Part shown: in pieces, positions 29,681 to 64,000 of the stretch
How positions within the stretch are numbered: the first letter of the stretch is position 1
Layout: every line of letters starts with the position of its first letter
NCBI RefSeq assembly: GCF_900108185.1
Contig: NZ_FNVA01000007.1
Location: 62,001-126,000 of the forward strand
DNA: 64,000 nt
Source of the DNA: Bryocella elongata
GTDB lineage: Bacteria; Acidobacteriota; Terriglobia; Terriglobales; Acidobacteriaceae
Direction: 5' to 3'
The notes under the pieces: model-generated
What the model was told of the DNA's origin: nothing
Databases searched by the model: none
The model's input: the letters and a program-made list of their open reading frames with translations, nothing else
Translations under genes and position numbers: made by a program

Positions 29681-29739
29681 GGAAACTCCGCGATGGGGTA
29701 TGAGTTGTGGCTAGACTATCAGCCCGTTGGTGTGGCTCA

Positions 29740-30900
29740 ATGTTTCGCATGAAGCTTGGTCTGCTTGCCGCTGTCCTTGCCGCCGGGACCCTTACCGTTG
29801 CCGCGTCCACCGCAACAGCCCAGCTGATGCCCAACAAGCCCGTCGAGTACAAGACGCACGAGGTGAACGCCGATGGTTCGATCACCTTTCGCTATCCGGA
29901 TGCGAGCGCGAAGCAGGTGGTAGTGGCGACGGATGCTTCGCTGAAGCCGCTCGAGATGAAGCGCGACGACAGCGGCATGTGGTCGGTGACCACTCCGCCG
30001 CTGACGCCGGAGGTCTACGGCTATACCTTCCTCGTCGATGGAGTGCAGCACCTGGACCCTCGCAACAGCGATGTGAGACCGAACTACAACTCGTACTTCA
30101 GCAACGTCACTGTGCCTGCAACTCCGCCTGCGCCCTGGGAGATGAACGCCGTGTCGCACGGCCGCGTGGATCATCACACTTACACGACGCATATCGCGAC
30201 AAACATCCCGCAGAATCAGGACAGTTACATCGTTTACACGCCAGCGGGATATGACGAGCACAAGAAGGGCGGCTATCCGGTGATGTATCTCCTGCATGGG
30301 TGGAGCGACCCGGAGACGGGCTGGATTGGCGTCGGCAAGGCGGACATGATCCTCGACAAGCTGATCGCCGACGGCAAAGCCGTACCGATGATTGTGGTGA
30401 TGCCGCTGGGCTATGGCAACTTCGACTTTGCGACGCATGGCATGAGTGTGTGGAGCGACCCGGCGAAGGTGGTCGAGAACGTGCACCTGTACGAGCAGAT
30501 GCTCGAGCAGGAGGTGATGCCTGCGGTCGAGCACGAGTACAACGTGGCGAAGGGACGCGAGAACCGCGCCATTGCAGGGCTTTCGATGGGCGGGCTGGAG
30601 ACCTTGTCCGTGGGCCTGAAGCATACGGATCAGTTCGCGTATGTGGTCGCGATGAGCTCTGCGGTGCAGGGCGCTCATTACGACGAGACGTGGCCGGGGC
30701 TGGATGCGAAGAAGGCGAGCCTGAAGCTGCTGTGGGTGAGCTGCGGCGTCAGCGATCCGCTGGTGACGCCGAACCGCGCGTTCATCACGTGGGCGAAGAC
30801 GAAGGGCTTCGATGTGAATGCGGTGGAAACTCCGGGTGCGCACACATGGGTGGTGTGGCGCGACAACCTGGTGCACGTGGCGCCGATGTTGTTCCGGTAG
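29740..30900 (+). CDS. Secreted esterase, enterochelin-esterase/Fes-like fold
   Basis: 386 residues with a signal peptide (GLLAAVLAAGTLTVAASTATAQ). An N-terminal immunoglobulin-like module (about residues 40-115; SITFRYPDASAKQVVVATDA) is followed by an esterase D-type alpha/beta-hydrolase: YPVMYLLHGWSDPETGW (oxyanion), ENRAIAGLSMGGLETLS with the nucleophile serine in GLSMGG, and the histidine in GAHTWVVWRD. Relatives include feruloyl/acetylxylan esterases and siderophore esterases; the E-set plus hydrolase arrangement favours a plant-polysaccharide esterase. ATG 29740 or 29749 would both give a signal peptide. Confidence 0.8.
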   Translation: MFRMKLGLLAAVLAAGTLTVAASTATAQLMPNKPVEYKTHEVNADGSITFRYPDASAKQVVVATDASLKPLEMKRDDSGMWSVTTPPLTPEVYGYTFLVDGVQHLDPRNSDVRPNYNSYFSNVTVPATPPAPWEMNAVSHGRVDHHTYTTHIATNIPQNQDSYIVYTPAGYDEHKKGGYPVMYLLHGWSDPETGWIGVGKADMILDKLIADGKAVPMIVVMPLGYGNFDFATHGMSVWSDPAKVVENVHLYEQMLEQEVMPAVEHEYNVAKGRENRAIAGLSMGGLETLSVGLKHTDQFAYVVAMSSAVQGAHYDETWPGLDAKKASLKLLWVSCGVSDPLVTPNRAFITWAKTKGFDVNAVETPGAHTWVVWRDNLVHVAPMLFR

Positions 30901-30950
30901 AACGAAGCTCTATGCGGGCCTTCGCATGCTCAATCAGCCGATACACCTCT

Positions 30951-31003
30951 GGGGCTAAACCCGGTGATTTAGGAGCGTTAACGGCGGGCCTGAAGCCCTG
31001 CCC
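30951..31003. repeat. Degenerate REP pair
   Basis: Half-palindromes GGGGCTAAACCC (30951-30962) and GGGCCTGAAGCCC (30986-30998) resemble the GGGCTNAAGCCC hairpins of the RAYT unit at 9565-10167. The spacer has no reading frame of note. Confidence 0.55.
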
Positions 31004-31031
31004 TAACAATCCGGACTTGCGCAAAAATCCC

Positions 31032-31160
31032 CTAAGAGCTAAGAGCTAAGAGCTAAGAGCTAAGAGCTAAGAGCTAAGAGCTAAGAGCTAAGAGCTAAGA
31101 GCTAAGAGCTAAGAGCTAAGAGCTAAGAGCTAAGAGCTAAGAGCTAAGAGCTAAGAGCTA
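31032..31160. repeat. Perfect 7-bp tandem repeat, 18.4 copies
   Basis: Unit CTAAGAG repeated without a single mismatch for 129 bp. It ends 3 bp before the stop codon of the minus-strand carboxylesterase gene, so it lies at that gene's 3' end. Because 7 is not a multiple of 3, every frame cycles through the same seven codons and meets a stop every 21 bases on both strands, so it is not coding. On the minus strand the unit reads TAGCTCT, close to TAGCTCC of the array at 32908-32966. Confidence 0.97.
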
Positions 31161-31163
31161 CTC

Positions 31164-32879
31164 CTATGTTCCCGGCTGCACGTACGGTACCTGGCCGAGA
31201 TAGCTACGTTCCCGGCCGCGCGGATCGTCTTCGATCCGTGGTGGGTCGTTGAGGATAAGCGTGGCTCGCTGCCTGAGGTCGAAGGTGGGCCAGTGGGGCA
31301 GCTTCGGGTTGTTGGGATTGCCCGTTCGCGCGAAGGCGATGTAGGTCTCACTGACGATCTCGGCCATGTGCTGTGCGCGTGCCTGGTCTGCTGGGCTTGC
31401 GCCCACCATGCCTGGCGAGAGCGCAACGTTGTCGAAGGCCAACGGAATGTCGAGCGTGTGTGGCGCGCCCCACTTGCCGCCGTCGACGCCGCTCTTCCAG
31501 TTCAACTGATAGACCCAGGTGTGAGGCTGCGATTTGGGATCGGCCGCGCGGCGATCGGCCTCGATGACCTCGCCGCGCCACGAGCGCGAGTCTGTGGTAA
31601 CGGCGAAGAACACATCGGCTGGTGAGTAATCGGGATGCCACTCGCGATACTTCGCGACGACCTCGGCTGCGGGCAGCGAGACGGTGTCGCTGCGCAGGAA
31701 GGGATCGTTCTTCTCGAGTGCTGCGGGCAGGGCTTCCCACGTGAGCGAGAAGAGCGCAGGCTGGCCGCCGCCAATGAGCACACGTGTCTCGTCGTGCGTG
31801 TTGCCGAGGATCATCGGGATGCTAGTGGATTGTTGCGGATCGGTCGGCGAGAAGGGATCGACGGGCAGCGAGCGGCCATCGCGCACCGGGCCAAAGTAGC
31901 CTGCGCTGCGTGTCGCGCGCTGGATCTCTTCCATGCTCGCGGAGCGTAGCACCTTCGCGGCTTCGGCAGGAGTTGCACCTTCCGCGACGCCAAGAGCCTT
32001 CAGCGCAGCCTGTGCGCGAGGCGTAGCGTGCGCTGGTTCAACGCCGGTGACCTGCTGGCCGCTCATCGAGAGAACGCGATGGAAGAGTCCCTTTGCCGGA
32101 GGCTGGGCCATCAGCGTGGCGCACTTGGCTCCGCCGCCGGACTGGCCGAAGATCATCACACGGTTGGGGTCGCCGCCAAAGTGCGCGATGTTCTCGCGCA
32201 CCCATTGCAGCGCGAGTATGAGGTCGAGCTGGCCAGCGTTGCCGGAGTCTTCAAAGCCCTGCCCTGGCACCGCGTCGGCGAGGTACATGTAGCCGAAGGC
32301 GTTGAGGCGATGATTCACGCAGACGACGACCACATCGCCGCGTTTCGCGAGCCGTGAGCCGTCGTAGAGCGCGGCGTTGGCTGTGCCGTTGGCGAAAGCT
32401 CCGCCGTGGATGTAGAACATCACGGGACGAAGGAGGCGCGGCGCGGCACGGCCCTCGGGATATTGCAGTGATGGTGTCCACAGGTTGAGGTGCAGGCAGT
32501 CTTCGCTCTGCGGGCCTTCATCGGGAGGCAGGTGATAGCCCGTCGGTGGAGGTGCGTCGCGCTTGCCGCTCTCATACGCAGGCCGCGCGCCGACGACCTG
32601 CGGCGCTCGCGGCGCCCATGCCAGGCAGTCGCGAACTTCAGACCACTCGTCGGGGCGCTGCGGCGCGGCGAAGCGTGTCTTCGCCGTGTCCATGCCGTAC
32701 GGTATGCCCTTGAAGCCGACCATACCTTCCGCGGTGCGATAGCCACGCACAGGGCCGTTGCCGGTATGCGCAACGAGAGGATCGTTGGCATAGGTCTGCC
32801 CGAGGACTTGCAGCGGGCGAGGCGCGAGCCACATGGTGCTCGCGATCGATCCGGACTTGAGGAGTTCACGACGGTTCAT
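31164..32879 (-). CDS. Carboxylesterase type B (para-nitrobenzyl esterase-like)
   Basis: 571-residue alpha/beta-hydrolase. The N terminus MNRRELLKSGSIASTMW has a twin-arginine-like start, so export by Tat is possible. Family motifs: GFKGIPYG, SEDCLHLNLWTP, VMFYIHGGAFANG (oxyanion), and RVMIFGQSGGGAKCATLM with the catalytic serine in GQSGGG; the histidine region is KWGAPHTLDIPLAF. Substrate is unknown; the family hydrolyses varied carboxylic esters. The gene is flanked by heptamer arrays in opposite orientation on both sides. Confidence 0.9.
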   Translation of the reverse strand: MNRRELLKSGSIASTMWLAPRPLQVLGQTYANDPLVAHTGNGPVRGYRTAEGMVGFKGIPYGMDTAKTRFAAPQRPDEWSEVRDCLAWAPRAPQVVGARPAYESGKRDAPPPTGYHLPPDEGPQSEDCLHLNLWTPSLQYPEGRAAPRLLRPVMFYIHGGAFANGTANAALYDGSRLAKRGDVVVVCVNHRLNAFGYMYLADAVPGQGFEDSGNAGQLDLILALQWVRENIAHFGGDPNRVMIFGQSGGGAKCATLMAQPPAKGLFHRVLSMSGQQVTGVEPAHATPRAQAALKALGVAEGATPAEAAKVLRSASMEEIQRATRSAGYFGPVRDGRSLPVDPFSPTDPQQSTSIPMILGNTHDETRVLIGGGQPALFSLTWEALPAALEKNDPFLRSDTVSLPAAEVVAKYREWHPDYSPADVFFAVTTDSRSWRGEVIEADRRAADPKSQPHTWVYQLNWKSGVDGGKWGAPHTLDIPLAFDNVALSPGMVGASPADQARAQHMAEIVSETYIAFARTGNPNNPKLPHWPTFDLRQRATLILNDPPRIEDDPRGRERSYLGQVPYVQPGT

Positions 32880-61484: not shown

Positions 61485-63179
61485 ATGTCGACCAACGCCG
61501 GCGCGCCGCAGAAGCGCCCCACCCTCAAGGCCGTCCGCGGCACCCGCGATCTCCTCCCCGACCAGACTCCGCTCTGGAACTTCGTCGAAGCCACCGCCCG
61601 CGGCGTCTTCGCCCGCTACGGCTTCGGCGAGATCCGCACGCCGATCCTCGAAGATACCTCCCTCTTCGCCCGCGCTGTGGGCGAGGAGACCGACATCGTC
61701 GGCAAGGAGATGTTTACGTGGGAAGACGGGTTGCGTGAGGACCTAAGGTCGCTTGAGTCAGATTGGCGACGAGTCCACGCAGATTTGTTAGACGTTGAAA
61801 GTACCTTCACACTTACCGCGAGGCCGATCGCGTGGACGGTTGCAACAATTGAAGGCAACCTGACGTTCGTGGAATTTCGAGTTCTGGTTCCTAAGACTCC
61901 TGACTTCGAGCTGAAGAAGAGAAATTCTGAACTTAAGGACCAGGGGACCCTTCACCGCGTAGTCGTCCCGAATTGGCGGATGGACCTTCTGGATCTGACC
62001 GCCTATGAAGATGCAGGTATTCGGGTCGAGGCCTTGAGCGGTCGCCATGTGGCCAAATCGGAATCGGTCTCGCTCCGCCCCGAGAACACCGCAGGCGTCG
62101 TCCGCGCGTACATCGAGCACAAGCTGGGCGAGACCGGCCAGCTGCAGAAGCTGTACTACATCGGCCCGCAGTTCCGCCGCGAGCGTCCGCAGAAGGGCCG
62201 CTACCGGCAGTTCTGGCAGATCGGCGCCGAGGTCATCGGCCCGCAGTCGTCGGGCTCGGAGTCCGCGCTGCGCGACGCCGAGGTGCTGCAGATGCTCGCC
62301 GCCCTCCTGGACGAACTCGGGATCCGAGGCTGGAGATTAGACCTGAACTCCGTAGGCTCCAGCGAAGATCGGGCCCGCTACAACGAAGCCCTGCGCGCCG
62401 CTCTCGCACCGGTCAAAGACCAGCTCTGCCCTGACAACCAGCGCCGCGCCGAGACCAACCCCCTGCGCGTGCTCGACTCCAAGGACGAGAACGACCAGGC
62501 CATCATCGAAGGCCTGCCCAAGATAGCCGACTACCTCGCCGAAGACTCGCGCGAGCACTTCCAGCAGGTGCTCGCCGCGCTCGATGCCTGCGGCGTGAAG
62601 TACAACCTGAATCCGCGCCTCGTGCGCGGTCTGGACTACTACACCCGCACCACCTTCGAGTTCACCGTGACCACCGGCCTGGGCACGCAGAACGCCCTGC
62701 TGGGCGGCGGGCGCTACGACGGCTTGAGCGAGATGCTCGGCGGCCCACGCGCGCCTGGCATCGGCTTCGCCATCGGCGAAGATCGCCTGATCCTCACCCT
62801 GCAGGCCCAGGCCGAGGAAGACGCTCGCGTGGCCAGGGAATCGGGTGCCCTTGTTTCTGGAGCCAGTCTCGCTTCTGAGACCTGGGTTCCTGCATGGGCA
62901 GCGAAGAAGCTCGACGCCTACATCGCCCCGCTGGGCATCGCCCAGAACCCTGCAGCCCTCGCCCTCGCGCACGAACTCCGCTCCGCCGGCCTCACCGTTG
63001 AAGTCGGCGATGGCGCCTTCAAACTCCGCAAGAGCTTCGACGTCGCCGACTCGCTGGCCCGCAACATCATCCTGCTCGGCGAAGACGAAGTCGCAACCCA
63101 GACCGCAACGGTGAAGAGCTTCGCGAGCGGGGAGCAGAAGAAGATTGCGCGTGCAGAGTTGATCGCCGTGTTGCGGTAA
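61485..63179 (+). CDS. hisS: Histidyl-tRNA synthetase with large in-frame insertion
   Basis: Attaches histidine to tRNA(His). 564 residues, against roughly 420-470 in most bacteria. Class II motif 1 region (RGTRDLLPDQTPLWNFVEAT to KEMFTWED, residues 19-81), motif 2 (LRPENTAG at 197 and FRRERPQKGRYRQFWQ), the HisA motif RLVRGLDYYT (about 378) and motif 3 (APGIGFAIGEDRL) are intact, as is the anticodon-binding domain (LDAYIAPLG onward). Two extra segments: about 109 residues at 82-190 between motifs 1 and 2, and about 20 residues near 452-475 in the hinge before the anticodon domain. ATG 61485 follows GGAAGGG. Confidence 0.93.
   Translation: MSTNAGAPQKRPTLKAVRGTRDLLPDQTPLWNFVEATARGVFARYGFGEIRTPILEDTSLFARAVGEETDIVGKEMFTWEDGLREDLRSLESDWRRVHADLLDVESTFTLTARPIAWTVATIEGNLTFVEFRVLVPKTPDFELKKRNSELKDQGTLHRVVVPNWRMDLLDLTAYEDAGIRVEALSGRHVAKSESVSLRPENTAGVVRAYIEHKLGETGQLQKLYYIGPQFRRERPQKGRYRQFWQIGAEVIGPQSSGSESALRDAEVLQMLAALLDELGIRGWRLDLNSVGSSEDRARYNEALRAALAPVKDQLCPDNQRRAETNPLRVLDSKDENDQAIIEGLPKIADYLAEDSREHFQQVLAALDACGVKYNLNPRLVRGLDYYTRTTFEFTVTTGLGTQNALLGGGRYDGLSEMLGGPRAPGIGFAIGEDRLILTLQAQAEEDARVARESGALVSGASLASETWVPAWAAKKLDAYIAPLGIAQNPAALALAHELRSAGLTVEVGDGAFKLRKSFDVADSLARNIILLGEDEVATQTATVKSFASGEQKKIARAELIAVLR
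61728..62054 (+). other. Low-GC in-frame insertion within hisS
   Basis: Codes for about 109 residues (after MFTWED, to just before AKSESVSLRPEN). Counted GC at 61741-62040 is 158 of 300 (53%), against 41/60 and 43/60 in flanking coding lines. Codons rare elsewhere in the window, such as CTA, TTA, AGG and CGA, cluster here. No known domain recognised. Confidence 0.85.
62843..62885. repeat. REP-like hairpin inside hisS
   Basis: CCAGTCTC and GAGACCTGG pair with one bulge; GGGTGCCC lies upstream at 62843. In opposite orientation this is hairpin plus GGGCACCC, as at 1309-1340. It encodes part of the GASLASETWVPAW segment of HisRS. Confidence 0.55.
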
Positions 63180-63202: not shown

Positions 63203-63391
63203 ATGGACTTCAGCATTGAGATGGAACGCGAAGACGATGGCCGCTGGATCGCCGAGGTGCCCGAGCTTCCGGGCGTCATGGTCTATGGGGCAACTCAAGC
63301 CGAGGCCAAGTCGAAGGTCCAGTCACTCGCTTTGAGTGTCTTCGGATGCGTGAAATCTGTTGACTTGGGCCATGCAACTTCCCAGAATTGA
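63203..63391 (+). CDS. HicB-like antitoxin-fold protein, no HicA partner seen
   Basis: 62 residues: FSIEMEREDDGRWIAEVPELPGVMVYGATQAEAKSKVQSLAL is the partial RNase-H-like fold of HicB proteins. The last 18 residues do not look like the usual C terminus, so a frameshifted end is possible. GAGGTG precedes ATG. A hicA gene is not visible on either side; the gene is 23 bp after hisS and 3 bp before the RHH antitoxin gene, so it may be co-transcribed with both. Confidence 0.7.
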   Translation: MDFSIEMEREDDGRWIAEVPELPGVMVYGATQAEAKSKVQSLALSVFGCVKSVDLGHATSQN

Positions 63392-63394
63392 TCC

Positions 63395-63688
63395 ATGGCG
63401 GGAACCTCCGGTGTCGTCAATCCGATCGATCTTCACGTGACCATGGAGCAGCTTATGCTCTTGCGCGAGGCTGCGGAGCGCGAGCGGAGCTCCCTGGAGG
63501 GTTTCGTACTGGACGCCGCATTGGACGCTGCTCGAGCTCATTCCTCCAGCAAGCGCCGCGTAACCCGTGACGAGGCTCTGGCGCTTTTGCGAGAGGCACG
63601 CGCCGCCGTTCGGCATGCGAATCCGCTGAATCGCGACCTGGCGGCGGAGTTGCTCGATGAACGCAGAGCCGAAGCGGACCGTGAATAA
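63395..63688 (+). CDS. RHH antitoxin, DUF1778-like
   Basis: 97 residues. NPIDLHVTMEQLMLLREAAERERSSLEGFVLDAALDAA is a ribbon-helix-helix pattern (beta strand, then two helices), as in DUF1778/VapB antitoxins. The C-terminal half is helical (RRVTRDEALALLREARAAV) and probably wraps the toxin. It overlaps the PIN gene, the usual arrangement of antitoxin before toxin. It should repress its own promoter, possibly located before the HicB-like gene. Confidence 0.75.
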   Translation: MAGTSGVVNPIDLHVTMEQLMLLREAAERERSSLEGFVLDAALDAARAHSSSKRRVTRDEALALLREARAAVRHANPLNRDLAAELLDERRAEADRE

Positions 63689-64000
63689 GGTCGTTCTTGA
63701 CGCCTCCGTCATACTGGCCCTCCTCAAGGAGGAGCGGATCGACGAACGAGCTCTTGATCTTGTCCAGGGCGGCTATATGAGCGCCGTCAATGTTGCAGAA
63801 GTGTTCAGTAAACTTAGCGACCTAGGACCGTCACCCTCCGAAGCCATGGAGAAGATATCCGCTCTCCTGGAACTACTCGAAGAGATCGTCCCGTTCACGA
63901 ATGGACAGGCTCGGACGGCCGGAGCCCTGCGGGAGTCGACCAGGCATCTGGGGCTTTCGCTCGGGGATAGAGCGTGCCTGGCTCTGGCAATTGCGCTCCA
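63657..64000 (+). CDS. PIN-domain toxin (VapC-like), 3' end outside window
   Basis: Open to the window end. Start is ATG 63657 or GTG 63681, both inside the antitoxin gene. PIN acidic residues: Asp in VVLDASVILALLKEE, Glu in AVNVAEVFSKL, and Asp in LSLGDRACLALA. These form the magnesium-dependent ribonuclease site. About 108-115 residues are visible of a normal 125-140, so only the last strand and helix are missing. It pairs with the RHH antitoxin upstream as a type II toxin-antitoxin module. Confidence 0.85.
   Translation, partial: MNAEPKRTVNKVVLDASVILALLKEERIDERALDLVQGGYMSAVNVAEVFSKLSDLGPSPSEAMEKISALLELLEEIVPFTNGQARTAGALRESTRHLGLSLGDRACLALAIAL

Follow-up and report, generated by a model that had tools for sequence, protein, structure and literature searches.

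A divergent in-frame domain in the histidyl-tRNA synthetase of Bryocella elongata and other Acidobacteriaceae: a candidate exchanged cassette of hisS

The window analyzed here was a 64,000-nt stretch of Bryocella elongata DNA (contig NZ_FNVA01000007.1, positions 62,001 to 126,000 of the forward strand) that carried hisS, encoding histidyl-tRNA synthetase (HisRS), close to its 3' end (Table 1). The ORF at 61485-63179 translated without internal stops to a 564-aa HisRS, which bears out the original prediction of an in-frame insertion in this enzyme. Pfam detected both the catalytic and the anticodon-binding domains around the insert, and the HisRS of relatives aligned to the window protein on either flank of it. 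From the W of KEMFTW to TLRPEN the window had 116 codons, compared with 14 in most congeners and 16 or 21 in five. Relative to the usual loop this adds a net 102 residues, so the predicted length of about 109 was a fair estimate. Alignments to PDB entries placed the insertion point between residues 73 and 75 of E. coli HisRS (1htt), directly before TLRPE. The genome was also checked for a second hisS, as had been proposed, and held one copy only, with no further copy of the insert elsewhere. The full-length HisRS model had a pTM of 0.52 with pLDDT <50 for residues 54-84 and 191-203, so the place of the insert on the enzyme cannot be read from it. On the 3' side of hisS in the window (63203-64000), three ORFs were noted by eye: a short HicB-like one, a small one resembling an antitoxin, and one that is PIN/VapC-like. 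Of 14 relatives from named genomes, 10 have an aspS-like gene near this place.

Table 1 Features of hisS in the window and of a stand-alone relative of the insert
Feature	Position	Strand	Basis
hisS, 564-aa histidyl-tRNA synthetase with insert	61485..63179	+	Translation, Pfam, sole hisS of genome
HisRS N-terminal part of catalytic domain (class II motif 1 side)	61485..61721	+	Pfam, translation, alignment to relatives
KEMFTW-to-TLRPEN stretch, 116 codons, holds inserted domain	61722..62069	+	Comparison with congeners
Inserted domain, bounds of the original prediction (GC 0.541, GC3 0.578)	61728..62054	+	Composition, family alignment A2
Predicted N-terminal helix of insert, with Trp (residue 94)	61743..61775	+	Structure model md85d7e04b1e1, alignment A2
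VEFR, aligned with LVELK (L057), LVEIR (L066), FIEFR (L047)	61869..61880	+	Alignments
HisRS remainder: TLRPEN, motif 2 (FRRERPQKGRYRQF, by eye), rest of catalytic domain, anticodon-binding domain	62070..63176	+	
L154, stand-alone PD-(D/E)XK-like protein, 146 aa, genome G106	L154:1444-1884	-	Profile A6, E 3.3e-5

The insert had been described as foreign-looking, and in its base composition it was. GC over 61728-62054 was 0.541, relative to a mean of 0.642 (sd 0.033) for the 300-nt windows of the whole stretch, and only 7 of 1274 such windows were as GC-poor, three of these 7 overlapping the insert itself. Of the predicted contrast between 53% GC in the insert and about 70% in its flanks, the low insert value held and the flanks were slightly lower, at ~67%. 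GC3 was 0.578 in the insert vs 0.862 in the remainder of hisS. Apart from the insert, 300-nt windows below 54% GC (0.513-0.537) occurred only at 30851-31300, where an esterase-like ORF (29707-30900) ends and a gap follows.

Two kinds of in-frame element were considered and rejected for the window. Rickettsia palindromic elements (RPEs) are short palindromic repeats found in frame in many protein genes. The HisRS insert shares with them the in-frame insertion into a housekeeping protein, but inserts at this site are 112-144 residues long, the window's is single copy in its genome, and it has no long palindrome: one 11-nt imperfect pair was the only inverted repeat, and no direct repeats of ≥10 nt lay around the insert. 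Inteins with homing endonucleases have Cys, Ser, or Thr as their first residue and a C-terminal Asn or Gln followed by Cys, Ser, or Thr. Like them, the HisRS insert is in frame at one conserved site of an essential gene, patchy in occurrence, and horizontally mobile; unlike them, it is short and lacks both the Cys/Ser/Thr start and the end junction with its Asn nucleophile. The window insert started with EDGLRE and ended with HVAKSESVS, its Pfam matches included no intein, and there was no sign of splicing.

We searched 398 Acidobacteriaceae genomes, obtained a HisRS match in 367, and read the candidate loci at which that match was split. This reading gave 33 HisRS with a large insert (112-144 residues at the site), including that of the window, spread over 14 genera. 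Within the window's genus 5/28 genomes carried one. Genomes with an unbroken single HisRS match were scored as being without a large insert on that match alone, except where the locus itself was read. Seven genomes with fragmentary or odd HisRS matches (G087, G144, G214, G268, G313, G349, and G406) were left unjudged, and G772, G785, and G786, where the HisRS match also looks split, as well as L078, which carries a further insert, stand outside the 33. Among 24 genomes from other families, 21 were judgeable, and the insert was found in 0/21 (gaps of 3-15 nt). When named GTDB genomes were scanned, 14 insert loci emerged, at least 12 of them duplicates of loci already in the set; most belonged to Acidobacteriaceae MAGs, and they included Granulicella sp. 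dw_53 and Granulicella sp. clean330. An aspS-like gene, recognized as AspRS, followed hisS in 10 of these 14 loci, the other four ending soon past hisS, and neither the 14 loci nor the end of the window gave any hint of a partner gene for the insert. Since other genomes have homologous domains at the identical codon, an assembly error, the artefact considered in the original prediction, would be a very unlikely source of the insert.

The same loop also took up smaller inserts, and twelve more loci had mid-size inserts of 30-52 residues at the hisS site. Four of these twelve (L069, L071, L072, and L075, from genera g7 and g45) had a separate insert class of 41-43 residues in this loop, with the pattern EDP...LAGTQ or LAGSQ, alike by eye. 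A phylum-wide run of profile A3 over 396 genomes gave 0 matches, an empty answer that carries no weight as it missed even the window's own insert. At E ≤ 1 in 40 chosen genomes, profile A3 recovered copies of hisS, plus weak matches at three other places (E 0.13-0.76), while missing some known divergent inserts. Second, distant HisRS-like matches occurred at G057:C152:8490-9233 (34%) and G060:C18:107176-108000 (32%), possibly HisZ or a paralogue.

The 33 large inserts aligned as a single domain (alignment A2), with a Trp in the first helix invariant in 33/33 and a conserved RLVVP-like strand. They were nonetheless very divergent, with a median identity of 22% vs 72% for the host enzyme, and the nearest relative of the window insert, that of L047 from another genus, was ~30% identical. 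The original prediction would have been undercut by the same residues recurring with normal codon use in most Acidobacteriota HisRS. We found the 32 other inserts all strongly divergent from the window's, and in all 32 copies compared GC3 was lower than in the host core, as was GC in 30.

Selection was examined in 17 pairs. Insert dN/dS was ~0.1-0.5 in the 6/17 pairs with finite insert dS, and core dN/dS was ~0.07-0.20 in the 15/17 with finite core dS; by these ratios the insert is under selection as a protein. Just after the first helix, all three g80 pairs had pN > pS (0.51/0.38, 0.16/0.00, and 0.39/0.22), with pN mostly lower elsewhere, in a scan that was small and uncorrected and whose pairs have shared branches. 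One could read the insert as a tolerated passenger in a loop that takes almost any folded insert, recombining in and out with neither drive nor benefit. The several kinds and lengths of insert at the site agree with this, and purifying selection could mean folding alone. However, the recurrence of one domain family in 14 genera is difficult to account for if nothing drives or rewards it, and the excess of pN after the first helix, for all its small numbers and shared branches, also speaks against a passenger, which we consider unlikely.

We compared the history of the insert with that of its host gene. A tree of the HisRS core (91 rows, insert removed, 'quick' method) excluded L039, L050, and the named loci, and its rows were picked partly for having inserts, so counts on it are not population frequencies. 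Presence of the large insert required 25 changes on this tree, 16 of them forced by well-supported branches, vs a mean of 26.7 when shuffled, and 124/500 shuffles were as low. Mid-size inserts were clustered (7 changes vs 11.5 shuffled; 0/500 shuffles as low), as was the absence of any insert (23 changes vs 30.7 shuffled; 1/500 as low). Close relatives differed in carrying the insert. The sisters L002 (insert) and L011 (none) had flank-window identities of 0.80-0.98 with a mean of ~0.93, including 0.93 and 0.95 at the boundary, and flank windows of L049 and L100, likewise unlike in insert, were 0.85-0.98 identical. The insert boundary was exact and in frame in sister pairs of ~93% mean nucleotide identity.

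The sequences of the inserts also departed from those of their hosts. L003 and L007, from the same genus, had a core dS of 0.26 and saturated synonymous sites in the insert (pS 0.78), so that their inserts are not one cassette inherited from the common ancestor of the hosts. L053 and L058 belong to different genera, and their inserts were 72.7% identical vs 71.1% for the core. In the nearest-neighbor comparison, which like that of GC3 left out L039 (n = 32), the nearest insert came from the same genus for 9/32 and the nearest core for 24/32, and nearest insert and nearest core coincided in 4/32. Insert and core identity were correlated (Spearman 0.36; 0/2000 permutations as high), which means that part of the inheritance is vertical. 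From these sequence comparisons, the view that insert relationships track the host gene only weakly, with horizontal exchange of the cassette, is well supported, and the large insert seems to have been gained, swapped, and lost repeatedly at one exact spot.

Insertion domains are familiar in class II aminoacyl-tRNA synthetases, where the INS domain of ProRS and insertion 1 of GlyRS are conserved within clades. The HisRS insert resembles them as an accessory domain between class II motifs and differs in being hypervariable, patchy, and exchanged. The titles and abstract openings that we searched, from few subscription journals, contained nothing on such HisRS inserts. A domain that contacts tRNA or regulates HisRS, tuned to the tRNA-His or a metabolite of the host, would suit a position adjoining the TLRPE segment (residues 73/75 of 1htt). 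A host-tuned function is at odds with the near-random scatter of the insert over the HisRS tree and with its exchange across genera, and we find such a role improbable. On the evidence of alignment and tree, the insert is very likely a hypervariable domain cassette exchanged among hisS alleles in the loop before TLRPE.

No domain had been recognized in the insert originally, and the domain libraries (Pfam, PHROGs, PADLOC, and NCBIfam) likewise placed the inserts in no convincing family (best E-values 0.0024 for DUF5857 and 0.0042 for CARF_PDDEXK, the latter with L066); profile methods point to the PD-(D/E)XK superfamily. A PDB profile search with the inserts returned HisRS only, through the alignment ends or at E 0.3-5, and tblastn searches of phages (window type and L058) and plasmids (window type and L066) gave nothing or chance-like matches at E 0.3-0.8. 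A domain model of L076, built with 15 sequences, reached a pLDDT of 81.6 and had the order helix, short strand, short helix, hairpin, long helix, strand, helix, strand, which is compatible with the PD-(D/E)XK core (alpha-beta-beta-beta-alpha-beta). Foldseek gave no match at E ≤ 0.001 among PDB or viral structures; gelsolin/ADF and Ohr made up most of its best PDB matches, among which BamHI, MUS81, and Can2 also appeared.

The clearest profile similarity came from a subgroup of five inserts (L055, L057, L066, L070, and L074), which aligned to NucS_C with an hhalign probability of 90.1 and ELK over ELK, compared with 1.8 for the OsmC control and ≤1.1 for 100 column-shuffled controls. Against NucS_C, all 33 inserts together scored 1.8, the 28 outside the subgroup 0.1, and a three-row subset 17.4; the window's type with its nearest relative scored 1.3 against NucS_C and 0.2 against L154. 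Because most other subsets scored low against NucS_C and L154, nuclease ancestry rests on one subgroup and on transitivity, the subgroup scoring 95.2 against the other inserts. Catalytic residues were scarce. VEFR of the window stands at what we take to be the place of the (D/E)xK motif, with no obvious Asp before it, and by eye only L057 of the 33 has both the Asp and (D/E)xK.

Profile A6, made from the five-insert subgroup, was run over the 398 genomes and matched nine: those of the five hisS inserts and of L154, L155, L156, and L157. L154, with the signature D...ELK...QQLALY, scored over nearly its full length against the subgroup (94.8) and all 33 inserts (80.8), with lower values for the 28 inserts outside the subgroup (8.3) and for NucS_C (1.0). 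Its best Pfam family was AHJR-like (E 0.12), and its gene adjoins endolysin and DNA-methyltransferase-like genes. Searches of phages and viral contigs found no relatives of L154, and PHROGs had no family for it. L155, a stand-alone protein of genome G250, matched profile A6 at E 0.0014 and Pfam PDDEXK_9 at 4.2e-5, just short of the family cut-off. L156 and L157 were rejected as chance-like matches (0.004 and 0.007).

The resemblance has two sides. One subgroup resembles NucS_C and a stand-alone protein whose gene adjoins phage genes, and the order of helices and strands is compatible with PD-(D/E)XK; the inserts are, unlike that superfamily, mostly without catalytic residues, embedded in HisRS, extremely divergent, and without a significant fold match. 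Judged from profiles and motifs, it is likely that the inserts descend from phage-associated PD-(D/E)XK proteins, and most copies have probably lost catalysis, leaving a non-catalytic cassette.

Such an ancestry invites comparison with a homing-type selfish element that is not spliced out. In this scheme an empty hisS would be cut at the conserved loop by a nuclease, either the domain of the element itself or that of a phage relative supplied in trans; repair would copy the cassette in frame, and dead copies would persist because they must still fold within an essential enzyme. In keeping with homing are the use of a single exact site within a conserved essential gene, the patchy occurrence, exchange across genera, a decayed catalytic motif, and relatedness to nuclease-like proteins. 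Yet by eye a single copy (L057) of 33 keeps both Asp and ExK, the flanks of the two closest pairs show no drop in identity toward the insert and hence no mark of a co-converted tract, and the same site is also used by different, mid-size inserts. We think homing an unlikely explanation, if a little less so than a mere passenger.

We prefer to see the insert as a horizontally exchanged, nuclease-derived, and probably non-catalytic cassette kept through conflict, a reading that we hold tentatively and at somewhat less than an even chance. Recombination between hisS alleles, running through the conserved codons that border the site, would bring cassettes in and take them out, and the need for HisRS to fold would keep them in frame. 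As to why they are maintained, we lean toward the idea that the domain may alter the way in which HisRS is met by foreign proteins of phages or competitors or by the acceptor end of the tRNA, such that rare variants are favored; that conflict with phages or competitors does favor rare cassette variants is conceivable, though we would sooner doubt it than assert it. The chances are evenly balanced for the broader proposition that a phage-nuclease-derived domain has become a mobile in-frame cassette of one essential gene without splicing, surviving because it folds inside HisRS, and that genera trade a shared pool of divergent alleles through homing or because rare variants shield the enzyme from phage or competitor factors. 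The original prediction offered a new domain or a tolerated element at an insertion-prone loop, and both parts seem to hold, as the inserts form a domain family and behave like a mobile element.

Aminoacyl-tRNA synthetases are regarded as conserved enzymes of the core, and a domain swapped like an allele beside the active site of one would be a surprise. If this is true, a hypervariable and horizontally traded part exists within a core enzyme of translation. Pairs such as L002/L011 and L049/L100, close enzymes with the cassette as their main difference, would provide a natural system for studying how essential proteins take up foreign domains, and the same system bears on homing without splicing and on HisRS as a possible battleground with phages or competitors.
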